Assembly (NCBI RefSeq): GCF_022352215.1
Contig: NZ_JAKRWF010000002.1
Coordinates: forward strand, 992,001-1,056,000
Source: Flavihumibacter cheonanensis
GTDB lineage: Bacteria; Bacteroidota; Bacteroidia; Chitinophagales; Chitinophagaceae
DNA: 64,000 nt
Direction of reading: 5' to 3'
The position numbers and the translations under genes were made by a program. This document shows, one piece after another, positions 41,816-58,482 of the stretch (positions are counted from its first letter, which is position 1; each line of letters opens with the position of its first letter). Under the pieces are notes generated by a model that did not search any database, had not been told where the DNA came from, and saw only the letters and a list, made by a program, of their open reading frames with translations.

Positions 41816-41882
41816 GTGAAAAGTGAAAGGTGAAAAGTGAAAGAAGGTGAGACGACAGATGTGAGAAGTGAAACGTGAAAAC
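41816..41882 (+). repeat. GTGAGAC-type repeat, copy 1 (diverged)
   Basis: Tandem-like units GGTGAAAAGTGAAA, then GTGAGACGACAGATGTGAGA and AGTGAAACGTGAAAAC. The second part differs by one base in 20 from the core at 56238-56257. It runs up to the stop codon of the vanZ-like gene (41882-41884). Confidence 0.75.
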
Positions 41883-44066: not shown

Positions 44067-44100
44067 GAATTATGAATTATGAAGTATGAATTATGAATTA
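44067..44100 (+). repeat. GAATTATGAAT-type low-complexity repeat
   Basis: About four and a half units of GAATTAT/GAAGTAT between gcvH and the cyclophilin gene. The last three bases (TTA) are the stop codon of the minus-strand cyclophilin gene. Confidence 0.75.
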
Positions 44101-53104: not shown

Positions 53105-55093
<1,989 letters not shown>

Positions 55094-55129
55094 TCAATAC
55101 GCTTAAATGGTAGAAAAAAAGACTATTGG

Positions 55130-55137
55130 CAAATGTA
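55130..55137 (-). promoter_or_regulatory. Candidate -7 promoter element for gyrB
   Basis: On the minus strand this reads TACATTTG, an exact TAnnTTTG match, about 45 bp before the gyrB ATG. The position expected for -33 falls inside the repeat at 55148-55207. Confidence 0.4.
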
Positions 55138-55147
55138 CGGAAAAGAG

Positions 55148-55207
55148 GTCAGATGTGAGACGTGAGACGTCAGAAGTGAGAAGTCAGACGTGAGACGTGA
55201 GAAGGGG
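55148..55207 (+). repeat. GTGAGAC-type repeat, copy 2
   Basis: About 60 bp of GTCAGATGTGAGACGTGAGA-like units ending GACGTGAGACGTGAGAAGGG. It lies between gyrB and the AraC gene, in the same orientation as the copy at 56238. Confidence 0.85.
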
Positions 55208-55255
55208 CATGCAGATCCAGAAATGACAGAGGGATGACAGGTGGAGGGGGGATTG

Positions 55256-56236
55256 ATGGCGGACCATTTACCTGAACTTGCCTATTTTTGCCCGTTGATG
55301 TTTCAGTCGCCTGATATATTATCCATAGCCCGGAAAGCGCCGGTGATGTACAATGAGTTGGAACTACTGTACCAAAAGGAGCAGCAAATTCCTGGTTCTG
55401 TGCATTACACTATCCACCGCTACCGGAAAAACATTGCTTTTGAGATGGATGATACAGGTTTCCTGGTGTATCACCGGGTGCCGGCGGATGAGAAACAGAA
55501 TTACCTTGAGTTACGCTTTTGTATTGCTGGTAATATGTATTGCCGTCAGTATCAGACTGAGTGCGATAGCTGCCGGGTTACCCAAACCCCTGCCTGTGAG
55601 CATCGCACCCCTAGTGTGGATGTGATGAGTTTTGTATTCAGTCCGGCTCATTTATCGCAGTTTGTTGGCTCCGGCAACATGAACTCCCTCCAGGATGATA
55701 TCATCCGGTTTCGACATCGAACTACCTTTTCAAAGGCATTATCACTTTGCAGCCGGACACGCTCAGTATTGGAAACCCTGTTGAATCACCAGTACAATGG
55801 TTCAATGGAGAATATCTTCATCAATGCGCAGATGCAGATGTTGCTATTGTTCAGCCTGGATTGTATGGTAGGAGAGAAGGAAGAAATCGCCTTCTCCTGT
55901 AAATTCCTGGCCAATGACAATGACCGGGTGAAAATTGAAAAGGCACGCGAATTATTACTACAACATATTGGTGAACCGATCACCATTAAAGAACTCAGCA
56001 AAAAAGTCGCCATCAATGAATGTTACCTGAAAAAGGGTTTCAAGGAAATGTATGGCACTACGGTTTTTGATTTCTACCAGAGCCAGCGCATGGAGCATGC
56101 CCGCTATCTGCTCTACGAAAAAGGCCTCAGTGTCACCGAAGTTTCCATGATGCTCGGCTATTCTTCTATCTCCCATTTTTCAACAGCGTTTAAGAAGCAT
56201 ACGGGGATTAAGCCGTGTGAACTGTTACTCCATTGA
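55256..56236 (+). CDS. AraC-family transcriptional regulator
   Basis: A 326-residue regulator. The N-terminal part (about 1-225) has several Cys (FCIAGNMYCRQYQTECDSC) and no recognisable cupin motif. The C-terminal AraC DNA-binding domain (about 228-325) has KARELLLQHIGEPITIKELSKKVAINECYLKKGFKEMYG and the second helix-turn-helix LSVTEVSMMLGYSSISHFSTAFKKHTG. The ATG at 55256 is preferred, with the purine-rich GGAGGGGGGATT before it. GTGAGAC-type repeats lie on both sides. Target genes are unknown. Confidence 0.87.
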   Translation: MADHLPELAYFCPLMFQSPDILSIARKAPVMYNELELLYQKEQQIPGSVHYTIHRYRKNIAFEMDDTGFLVYHRVPADEKQNYLELRFCIAGNMYCRQYQTECDSCRVTQTPACEHRTPSVDVMSFVFSPAHLSQFVGSGNMNSLQDDIIRFRHRTTFSKALSLCSRTRSVLETLLNHQYNGSMENIFINAQMQMLLLFSLDCMVGEKEEIAFSCKFLANDNDRVKIEKARELLLQHIGEPITIKELSKKVAINECYLKKGFKEMYGTTVFDFYQSQRMEHARYLLYEKGLSVTEVSMMLGYSSISHFSTAFKKHTGIKPCELLLH

Positions 56237-56237
56237 G

Positions 56238-56281
56238 GTGAGACGTCAGATGTGAGAAGTGAGACGTGAGATGTGAGACGG
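56238..56281 (+). repeat. GTGAGAC-type repeat, copy 3 (left inverted arm)
   Basis: Starts one base after the AraC stop and reaches the stop codon of the four-helix-bundle gene. Its first 34 bases (56238-56271), beginning GTGAGACGTCAGATGTGAGA, match the complement of 56713-56746 with one mismatch. Confidence 0.9.
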
Positions 56282-56650
56282 TTAATCTGATGATTCGGAT
56301 TGTTTAATTAAGTTTGAGAGAAGAGCAAAACAATGATTCATCAGGCTGGAGATGGATGTATTGGAGGCTGCATTAAAATACCCCAGGTGATAACTAATTT
56401 CAAGGGCGGCATCAACCTCAATTAAAGATGCTCTGGCGATTTCATAAAATCGAATTCTTTCCTTGACAGTTTTTCTTGCGGCGCCTTCTGCAATATTTAG
56501 AAAAACTGAAACTGCTGCTCTACGAATTTGTTGTGTAATTCCAAATTTTTCAACTTCAGGAAATAATCTGGTGATTTTATAGCATTCTATTGCACAATCT
56601 CGTGCAATTTGAAAGACAGTAAGCTTTTGATGTTTTAGTTCTAATAACAT
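56282..56650 (-). CDS. Four-helix bundle protein (23S rRNA intervening-sequence family)
   Basis: A 122-residue protein with the family signatures ECYKITRLFPEVEKFGITQQIRRAAVSVFLNIAEGAARKTVKERIRFYEIARASLIEVDAALEI in shortened view: FPEVEKFGITQQIRRAAVS and LNIAEGAARKT. It is all helical. The family is named for proteins coded inside 23S rRNA spacers; the biochemical role is not established. The ATG at 56650 is chosen because the open frame upstream, to a GTG at 56725, only translates the right repeat arm and hairpin. It is not in an rRNA gene here. Confidence 0.85.
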   Translation of the reverse strand: MLLELKHQKLTVFQIARDCAIECYKITRLFPEVEKFGITQQIRRAAVSVFLNIAEGAARKTVKERIRFYEIARASLIEVDAALEISYHLGYFNAASNTSISSLMNHCFALLSNLIKQSESSD

Positions 56651-56685
56651 AGCCCTATATTTCCCATAAAGAAAATATAGGGCTA
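56650..56685. repeat. 13-bp perfect hairpin at the four-helix-bundle start
   Basis: TAGCCCTATATTT (56650-56662) and AAATATAGGGCTA (56673-56685) with a 10-base loop. The left arm touches the ATG of the gene, so on the mRNA the hairpin lies right in front of the start codon. Confidence 0.8.
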
Positions 56686-56712
56686 TTAATTCTGGTAGAG
56701 TGTTTTCACCCT

Positions 56713-56757
56713 TCTCACGTCTCACGTCTCACATCTGACGTCTCACTTTTCACCTCC
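56713..56757 (-). repeat. GTGAGAC-type repeat, copy 4 (right inverted arm)
   Basis: The complement begins GTGAGACGTCAGATGTGAGA at 56746 and continues outward as GGTGAAAAGTGA, which also occurs at 41816-41827. It contains the ferritin stop codon (56743-56745). Confidence 0.9.
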
Positions 56758-57246
56758 CCTATATGCCATAATATCCCTATCAAACAAATACAACCCACTC
56801 TTATCCTCTCCAATCAACTCCAGTTTTTCATTAAGGGTGCGGGCGGTACGCTCTTCTTCCATTTGTTCGGTTACATACCACTGTAAGAAATTGTGGGTGG
56901 CATAATCCTTTTCGGAAAGGGAAAGGTGTACAATATCATTGATGCTGTTGCTGACTTTGATTTCGTGTTTGAGAAATTCGGCGAATGCAGATTGTAGACT
57001 GCGAAAAGTGAGGATGGGTTGTTCAAGTGGGGGTACCATCGCGAATCCACCGCGTTCATTGATAAAGCCCATGAGTTTGAGCATATGCATTCTTTCTTCA
57101 TCTGCCTGTTTGTAAAAGAAGGCAGCAACTCCTTGTAGTCCGGGTTGAATATCGGCCCAGGAAGCCATTGCCAGGTAAGCCTGCGAAGATTCGGCTTCCA
57201 TCTGCACTTGTTTATTCAGGGCATCCTGCATTGTTTTTGAGAGCAT
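56743..57246 (-). CDS. Ferritin
   Basis: Iron-storage protein that forms 24-mer shells. The 167-residue chain has the ferroxidase-site residues in the usual places: Glu17 (QMEAESSQAYLAMA), Glu50 and His53 (EERMH), a Glu in the FLKHEIKVSNSIND helix, and the WYVTEQMEEE helix. Length and sequence fit bacterial non-heme ferritin (FtnA type). The last codons (GGEK and stop) are written in the start of the GTGAGAC repeat, so the extreme C-terminus may have been altered by it. It follows anmK by 33 bp on the same strand. Confidence 0.92.
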   Translation of the reverse strand: MLSKTMQDALNKQVQMEAESSQAYLAMASWADIQPGLQGVAAFFYKQADEERMHMLKLMGFINERGGFAMVPPLEQPILTFRSLQSAFAEFLKHEIKVSNSINDIVHLSLSEKDYATHNFLQWYVTEQMEEERTARTLNEKLELIGEDKSGLYLFDRDIMAYRGGEK

Positions 57247-57279
57247 ACATCTATTTTTCTGGAAGATACAAAATTGGCC

Positions 57280-58482
57280 TCATCCTGGGAAACTCAATTT
57301 GCCCATCGATACGGTTGGAATACCATTTCGACCTTCACCAAAATTCACCCGGCCACCTGTCAGCCATTCATTCGCCAACACAGCAAACAGGACTGCTTCT
57401 TTGGCATCGGGATCAATGCCTAGCGCACTCGTATCTTTAAATTGTATACCGGGAAGTAAGTTGCGCAGGTTGTTCATCAACACCGGGTTGTGCATACCGC
57501 CACCACTTACATAAAAATGAAAATCGGAGGGCGCATCGATTTGTGATTTCACTGCCTGGGCTATACCTTCTGCCGAAAACCGGTTTAAGGTTGCCATGAT
57601 ATCCGCTTCTGAAATTGCTGATGTTCCAGCCTTTCGTTTTGCTGCATCCAGGTAAGCCAGATTAAACAATTCCGGTCCGGTTGTTTTAGGAAAGGGCTGC
57701 TCAAAAAAGGGATGATCCAATAATGCCTGCAGGAGTTTTTCGTTTATGCGTCCCTGTGAGGCAAGCTGTCCATTGGAATCGTAATAAGTACCCGGATGCA
57801 CTTTCTGTATAAACGCATCCATCAGGGTATTGCCTGTACCGGTATCAGAGCAGAATACGCGGTCGGGGTTCAGGTCGCCGGGTAAAAAAGTGAAATTGGC
57901 TATGCCGCCAATATTCAGCAAGATCCTGTTTTCACCGGCTTTGGAAAAAATCAGGTAATCGCCATAGGCAGCAAGGGGAGCGCCTTCACCTCCTCCTGCA
58001 ATATGTTTCTGCCGAAAATCGCTGATGGTGATAATGCCGGTTCTTACTGCCAGGTGATCGCCATCGCCCAATTGCAGGGTGCCATTTCCGAATTTCTCAA
58101 TCCCGTGTAAGGATTTGGGTGCGTGAAAGATTGTTTGCCCATGACTCGCAACAATGTCGATCTCTTCGGGTGAAATCCCCCATTTTTTTAATGCCTGGGC
58201 AATCAGATCTGCATGCTGCTCAGCTATCCAGCCATTCAGCAGACAGAGTTTTTGCAAATCCACCTGGGATTTTGAAAATACCGAGGCAATTTCTTCTTTG
58301 AATTCCGCTCCATACGGCAAGGTGATAAACTGCTCTAACCGGATCTCAGTATCCATTCCATTCCCCCTGAACCGGCACAGGGCGATGTCCAACCCATCTA
58401 CAGATGTGCCTGACATGAGCCCGATGATCCTCCTTTCCGGACGGGAAGCAATCCGGTACAACTTATCTAAATACTGATTCAT
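57280..58482 (-). CDS. anmK: Anhydro-N-acetylmuramic acid kinase
   Basis: Opens and phosphorylates 1,6-anhydro-MurNAc from cell-wall turnover to MurNAc-6-phosphate. The 400-residue protein has the ATP/substrate motif IIGLMSGTSVDGLDIALCRF, VASHGQTIFHAP, HIAGGGEGAPL, ILLNIGGIANFTF and the VFCSDTGTGNTLMD segment of the family. It is divergent from murQ, the next enzyme of the same pathway, with 133 bp between. Confidence 0.96.
   Translation of the reverse strand: MNQYLDKLYRIASRPERRIIGLMSGTSVDGLDIALCRFRGNGMDTEIRLEQFITLPYGAEFKEEIASVFSKSQVDLQKLCLLNGWIAEQHADLIAQALKKWGISPEEIDIVASHGQTIFHAPKSLHGIEKFGNGTLQLGDGDHLAVRTGIITISDFRQKHIAGGGEGAPLAAYGDYLIFSKAGENRILLNIGGIANFTFLPGDLNPDRVFCSDTGTGNTLMDAFIQKVHPGTYYDSNGQLASQGRINEKLLQALLDHPFFEQPFPKTTGPELFNLAYLDAAKRKAGTSAISEADIMATLNRFSAEGIAQAVKSQIDAPSDFHFYVSGGGMHNPVLMNNLRNLLPGIQFKDTSALGIDPDAKEAVLFAVLANEWLTGGRVNFGEGRNGIPTVSMGKLSFPG

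Follow-up and report, generated by a model that had tools for sequence, protein, structure and literature searches.

A Probable Small Mobile Element Carrying an S23 Gene between Inverted Heptamer Arrays in Flavihumibacter cheonanensis

Anatomy of the Element at the AraC-Ferritin Junction

The DNA analysed is a stretch of 64,000 nucleotides from F. cheonanensis, a member of the Chitinophagaceae, here called the window, in which a small element lies between the ends of two convergent genes. To its left is a gene encoding an AraC-type regulator (55241-56236, forward strand; HTH_18, 3e-21), the stop codon of which touches the left arm of the element, one base before its paired segment. To its right is a ferritin gene (56743-57246, reverse strand; PF00210, 2.2e-37), and the ferritin stop at 56743-56745 falls within the right arm, so that the element occupies the position between two convergent stops given in the original prediction. 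Over 34 bp the arms (56238-56271 and 56713-56746) show 97% complementarity, with the single mismatch already reported, and the pairing extends to 41 nt at 90%, giving the locus an inverted-flank score of 31.5. Both arms are tandem heptamers of the GTGAGAN type (GTGAGAC and variants); repeat analysis delimits the left array to 56235-56281 on the forward strand (GTGAGAC, GTCAGAT, GTGAGAA, GTGAGAC, GTGAGAT) and the right array, made of the same heptamers on the other strand, to 56705-56756. The last codons and stop of the ferritin gene (56743-56760) are written by the right arm, and the insertion seems to have re-coded the ferritin C-terminus.

Between the arms is an open reading frame of the 23S rRNA intervening-sequence (IVS) family, hereafter S23, as had been proposed, with matches to Pfam 23S_rRNA_IVP (PF05635) at 1.1e-29 and to TIGR02436 at 4e-28. 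It spans 56282-56725 on the reverse strand when counted from the first start codon; the likely start is the ATG at 56650, giving a gene at 56282-56650 and a protein of 122 amino acids that is modelled with a pLDDT of 91.6. The description of the element as having almost no spare sequence was slightly off, since about 55 nt separate this ATG from the right arm and hold a second hairpin directly before the S23 start (56649-56686, reverse strand), perfect over 14 bp with a fold z-score of -5.67. By eye, one pair of this hairpin is altered on both sides in G004. The S23 gene otherwise fills the element, Pfam and NCBIfam matches are to the IVP and four helix bundle families only, and no transposase of its own was found, in keeping with the earlier reading.

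The RNA of the whole element is predicted to fold with the arms closed into a stem (z -7.07). The element resembles an rRNA IVS in that an S23 protein is encoded and terminal inverted repeats form a long predicted stem around its reading frame; it does not lie within a 23S rRNA gene, its neighbours being the AraC and ferritin genes, and an Rfam scan of 55000-57500 gave no match. Comparison of the S23 gene with that of F. fluminis (dN 0.032, dS 0.291) indicates purifying selection, and its dS resembles that of the AraC gene (0.320), with ferritin at 0.807 in the same comparison.

Occupied and Empty Junctions in Related Genomes

The AraC-ferritin junction was compared across 12 genomes, including G000, which we take to be the source genome, and G004, of the same genus, the S23 stretch of which is identical to that of F. 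fluminis RY-1 (L207). Five have an empty junction, with gaps of 57, 44, 43, 22 and 33 bp (G002, G007, G001, G011 and G003, respectively), four carry an S23 element (G000, G004, G008 and G014, the source genome included), and three are filled with other sequence (G009, G006 and G017). The empty sites support the original suggestion of a free-standing IVS relative that spreads between genes, and the pattern named in advance as evidence against it, the same gene and repeats in all relatives with no empty sites and no other copies, was not found. In G008 and G014 the junction holds a different S23 gene, 56% and 52% identical to that of the window, in the opposite orientation and with GTGAAAG arms. 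Despite the different S23 gene, G008 has flanking proteins that are 98-99% identical, with a flank dS of about 0.7.

The proposed genome-wide search with the arm and the protein bore out the prediction in part: the arm sequence is multi-copy and two other PF05635 genes occur in the source genome, one of them below the family cut-off, but no second whole copy of the element was recovered. The S23 genes of one genome are diverse and are not recent copies of each other, and copying of whole elements within a genome is therefore not seen. The second S23 element of the source genome (PF05635 match below cut-off, 29.5 bits) has TATGAATT-type arms in G000, G004 and G008, and its site is empty in G002, where 29 bp separate two convergent genes. 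Concerted evolution of the two arms of an element was considered and set aside, as the G000 and G004 arms are no more similar within a genome than between the two.

Gene-Less Heptamer Arrays

The arm sequence GTGAGAYGTGAGAY, allowing up to one mismatch, occurs in 162 + 156 copies in the source genome vs. 2 for the reversed pattern; because it is so dispersed, the arms are ruled out as a terminal-repeat pair unique to the window element. The source genome contains many intergenic arrays of tandem 7-mers, as described for dispersed tandem heptamer repeats, and 20 of 33 gene-less arrays examined start within 25 nt of a stop codon. Three lie on the forward strand of the window. A GTGAGAC array 1 kb upstream of the element (55144-55202) is GTGAAAG-rich at the same place in G008 and G014 and absent in G002, a GTGAAAG array was found by array scan at 41816-41842, and an ATGAATT array at 44067-44100 is of the same flavour as the source genome's second S23 element. 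This last array agrees in type with the arms of that element in four genomes, both being ATGAATT in G000, G004 and G008 and GAAGTT in G014 (shared flavour was compared for L178 near 5685 vs. window 44067-44100 and for L290 vs. L011), as if the array flavours within one genome were changing together.

The heptamers are unevenly distributed among genomes. GTGAGAY pairs number 102 in G000, 209 in G004, 53 in G005, 39 in G008, 167 in G049 and 11 in G018; of 59 genomes, the source genome among them, 50 have none. GTGAAAR pairs are highest in G008 (369; reversed control 28) and G014 (212; control 10), the two genomes in which the ferritin-junction S23 gene has GTGAAAR-type arms, followed by G000 (194), G005 (75) and G004 (69), and are near the reversed control in G034 (36 vs. 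25) and G038 (20 vs. 13). GGTGAAT pairs are found in G017 (109), G011 (70), G013 (58), G012 (35), G049 (29) and G014 (22), with at most 6 in others. In G002, where both S23 sites are empty, no GTGAGAY, GTGAAAR or ATGAATT pair was found.

Among 36 genomes of the family, the presence of an S23 gene with arms matching under lax criteria is associated with 10 or more arrays (Fisher p 0.0028, 0.024 and 0.04). Many arrays also occur without an S23 gene of matching arms (GTGAGAY in G049, G005 and G008; GGTGAAT in G014, G017 and G049; GTGAAAR in G000 and G005), and some genomes have a matching S23 gene and few arrays. Sampled stretches contained 2 arrays in 520 kb from six S23-free genomes, 1 in 240 kb from three genomes with one or two S23 genes, and 49 in 480 kb from five S23-rich genomes, 41 of the 49 coming from G022 and G049. 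In one gene-less pair of G022 an unrelated interior is enclosed by exactly the 32-nt arm found in an S23 element, and other gene-less pairs of this genome carry variants of S23-element arms. A nested inverted repeat starting AACGCAGATTTTCA is present within two heptamer-armed pairs of G022 (L344:2100-2420 and L344:15700-15960).

S23 Loci as a Class

Three sets of S23 loci were collected, with inverted flanks defined as a score of 14 or more. Set 1 comprises 114 order-level loci from 42 genomes, a subset of the matches listed, reduced to 113 by the removal of one with a short flank. Set 2 began as 80 loci of the window's subfamily. Two of them, L207 and L239, duplicated set-1 loci and were removed, no other identical pair being found, and two more had short flanks, leaving 76 that include Melioribacteraceae, Ignavibacteriales and a Candidatus Scalindua record. 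The plasmid set consists of 16 records fetched of 27 with a match, 15 cyanobacterial and one from Gemmatimonadota.

Inverted flanks were present at 85 of 113 set-1 loci, vs. 25 of 1089 swapped pairs and none of 300 random flank pairs from relatives. Arrays of period 7 lie beside 56 of these loci, on both sides in 29, compared with 17 loci for period 8 and at most 3 for periods 3-6 and 9-13; exceptions are 28/113 loci without a clear inverted repeat and 57/113 without a period-7 array at the threshold used. The corresponding figures are 65/76 and 57/76 in set 2, where swapped pairs score highly (215/901) because the loci share a motif, and 14/16 (swapped 20/240) and 11/16 in the plasmid set. 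Arms of period 8, such as AATTTGAA, account for the 17 loci in G022 and other genomes, and period-8 arrays are likewise raised in S23-rich genomes (17 vs. 1). Four of five rRNA motifs, searched with no positive control, had no match in other S23 loci, a weak result as to whether these loci lie in rRNA.

Arm motif and protein were compared at 183 loci (107 from set 1), using pairs from different genomes, a match being a score of 14 or more. For every bin below 35% protein identity, the share of pairs with matching arms was 0.8-2.3%, rising to 4.0% at 35-40% identity, 12.6% at 40-45%, 16.1% at 45-50%, 30.4% at 50-60% and 65.5% above 60%, where the high-identity pairs include orthologous loci of close species. 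Restricted to set 1, the highest bin (at least 50% identity) reached 32.9%, with a Mantel r of 0.251 that was equalled in 0/2000 permutations. Cluster consensus motifs differ, including GTGAATN (92 loci, the window's cluster), GCTNTNA, GNCNACG, NAATTNA and GGTNTTA, and some S23 clusters have no clear consensus. Gene and arm motif thus descend together; as the two are linked, their association is evidence of common descent and not of binding.

The 145 loci with inverted flanks most often lie between neighbours that point in the S23 direction (109), with 9 between opposite-pointing neighbours, 15 between convergent and 6 between divergent ones, and 6 unclassed. Since ordinary genes between co-directional neighbours give 411:103, and small genes 44:14, the sense excess of 109:9 is modest (p 0.0012 and 0.0038), and orientation was no longer treated as a strong signal once this control was applied. 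In 103 of 124 loci the start of the 5' arm lies no more than 15 nt from the upstream stop, vs. 8 of 44 spacers of ordinary small genes, a signal that is inflated because arms of the window's subfamily hold stop codons and so pull in the ends of upstream reading frames.

Junctions on Cyanobacterial Plasmids

Empty and occupied sites were also found on cyanobacterial plasmids at about 98% identity. Nothing is inserted at the best junction in N. linckia and M. diplosiphon, nor, judging by matched length, in four further records; T. variabilis and Scytonema carry an S23 element there. At the same junction Nostoc C052 carries a truncated S23 gene (residues 1-40, 72.5% identical), and Brasilonema a weak heptamer hairpin (score 12.5) without S23. 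The insert is flanked on both sides by the 5-bp GTAAT, which includes the stop codon, at this one junction in the two occupied records, a possible 5-bp target-site duplication. Two related plasmids of Nostoc ATCC 53789 carry S23 elements in two different junctions of one gene run, each serving as the empty site of the other; a TTCTA duplication there is doubtful, as these bases may be part of the end of the element itself. A fourth junction, with flanks 97% identical, carries the S23 element in N. edaphicum and a heptamer hairpin (score 21) lacking the gene in Nostoc 53789. Some plasmid S23 elements lie in CRISPR operons (L301, L303 and L306), in the orders cas6-S23-cas4 and cas10/cmr2-S23-cmr3. 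In Picosynechococcus PCC 7002 the cmr2-cmr3 junction has no insert. Taken across genomes, comparison shows that elements, decayed remnants and gene-less hairpins are gained and lost at the same junctions, and in this way shows mobility.

Proposed Explanation and Alternatives

The window element is probably one copy of a widespread small mobile class with the organization heptamer arm, S23 gene, inverted heptamer arm. Such an element lands at gene ends, usually in or beside a stop codon and mostly in the sense of its host genes, with which it would be transcribed, and its arms can pair in the RNA as a long stem, like an rRNA intervening sequence. The S23 protein may recognise its own heptamer, in RNA or DNA, and promote its spread, that of gene-less arrays included. 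RNase III could excise the stem from the transcript, as reported for rRNA IVSs, and insertion might be carried out by an enzyme supplied in trans, which, by analogy with Avd, could be a reverse transcriptase acting on the excised RNA, the least certain step. Comparison shows the gain and loss, the pairing of motif with protein and the landing sites, while heptamer recognition, the RNA stage and the inserting enzyme are steps that we infer.

A broader reading is put forward tentatively, and we would hold it with somewhat less than even confidence: S23 proteins may be the specificity factors of a cross-phylum mobile class without a recognisable nuclease or polymerase, each subfamily spreading its own 7-nt motif as arms, gene-less arrays and hairpins, possibly through RNA and a partnership with a reverse transcriptase resembling that of Avd. 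The rRNA IVSs and many heptamer repeats of Bacteroidota, Cyanobacteriota and Xanthomonas would then be members or footprints of this class.

The strongest rival, although unlikely, is DNA transposition by the transposase of another element, in which the arms serve as terminal repeats, S23 is carried along as cargo or assists by binding DNA, the gene-less hairpins are MITE-like and there is no RNA stage. The terminal inverted repeats, the one possible GTAAT duplication and the gene-less hairpins with arms resembling those of S23 elements are all expected from it; however, no conserved terminal sequence is common to the subfamilies, arm length and repeat number vary, the gene-less pairs of G022 have unrelated interiors, unlike the usual copies of a MITE, and a search for Y1, the only transposase type searched, gave weak matches at most within the genus.

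Cassette exchange by homologous recombination, in which S23 genes would be exchanged or inverted between heptamer arrays that provide the landing homology, would account for the different, oppositely oriented S23 genes of G000 and G008 at one junction and for the Nostoc junction at which hairpin and element alternate between near-identical flanks. We consider it a poor candidate, given that the empty sites have no array with which to recombine and that the arm motif changes along with the gene and is not fixed to the site.

That S23 is instead part of a settled regulatory system, binding heptamer arrays at message 3' ends so that apparent mobility is slow gain and loss, is highly improbable: arrays do begin near stop codons (20/33), the window S23 gene is under purifying selection and some array places are common to four species, but the clean pairs of empty and occupied sites, about 98% identical, the finding of different S23 genes at a single site and a decayed S23 remnant all argue against it. 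Equally hard to credit is the view that the arrays are ordinary replication-slippage microsatellites with S23 genes merely nearby, for although array lengths and variants change fast between species and the available text of PMC4692102 cites a polymerase-footprint idea for period 7, the motif tracks the protein subfamily, the arms are paired and inverted, and arrays are scarce in the sampled S23-free genomes (2 in 520 kb).

If the preferred reading of a mobile S23 element is correct, a gene known from rRNA inserts is also carried by mobile elements that lie between ordinary bacterial genes, and these may account for some of the enigmatic 7-letter repeats found throughout bacterial genomes. Two old puzzles would meet here, the origin and movement of rRNA IVSs and the abundance of tandem heptamers between bacterial genes, and should S23 read the heptamer and drive its spread, both could be tested with one small gene. 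The class would be one of mobile elements without a recognised transposase of their own, and would provide numerous natural pairs of protein and motif from which to learn how nucleic acid might be read by a four-helix bundle.

Comparison with Known Systems

In REP/RAYT systems, a gene is flanked by repeats that are also found dispersed without it, and the S23 element is alike in being bracketed by repeats that also occur gene-less. It differs in that its repeats are heptamer arrays and in that G000, G004, G005 and G008 have no Y1 transposase over the cut-off; the best Y1 (HUH) match in G000 reaches 22.3 bits vs. a cut-off of 23, placing the element outside this group, and within the genus only G007 and G014 exceed the cut-off, weakly (24.8 and 25.3 bits).

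The S23 model superimposes on XCC0516 with a TM of 0.91 and on Avd of diversity-generating retroelements (4DWL, 8UBE) with a TM of 0.76, which indicates the same fold, with Foldseek E-values of 0.15 or more that are not significant. Homology between 2GSC and Avd is noted in the available text of PMC10053308. Unlike diversity-generating retroelements, the S23 element has no known template and variable repeats.

Dispersed tandem heptamer repeats are also known as STRRs. Heptamers are the most abundant intergenic tandem repeats in many prokaryotes, and the accessible part of the same source sees no clear clue to their function (PMC6344855). Examples in the portions available include GGGAATC in Xanthomonas and GGGGA(C/T)T in Nostoc, described apart from S23 (PMC4692102), and TAACTGA, along with heptamer repeats in Beggiatoaceae, Cyanobacteria and Bacteroidetes, again described apart from S23 (PMC4679880). 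The likeness extends to intergenic tandem 7-mers, their frequent position towards the 3' end of the upstream gene and, in Xanthomonas, their common arrangement as inverted pairs, whereas the available text of PMC4692102, PMC4679880 and PMC6344855 makes no mention of S23.

Within the literature covered, which took in few subscription journals and no preprints, no paper on S23 genes with heptamer arms outside rRNA was found, and the only one to join an S23 gene with heptamers, as far as the available texts go, concerns an IVS within rRNA (PMC4990558). IVP reading frames are likewise described within inserts in both 16S and 23S rRNA genes of CPR bacteria in the accessible text of PMC11270868. The window element differs from 23S rRNA IVSs in that it lies in DNA between protein-coding genes and has related gene-less repeats dispersed in the genome. 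In the Coxiella burnetii rRNA IVS, according to the available text, tandem GACAGAT heptamers lie ahead of the S23 start, the first of them being the site of RNase III cleavage (PMC4990558); as in the window element, the S23 gene of this type of IVS sits in the loop of a stem formed by terminal inverted repeats, with heptamers preceding the gene.
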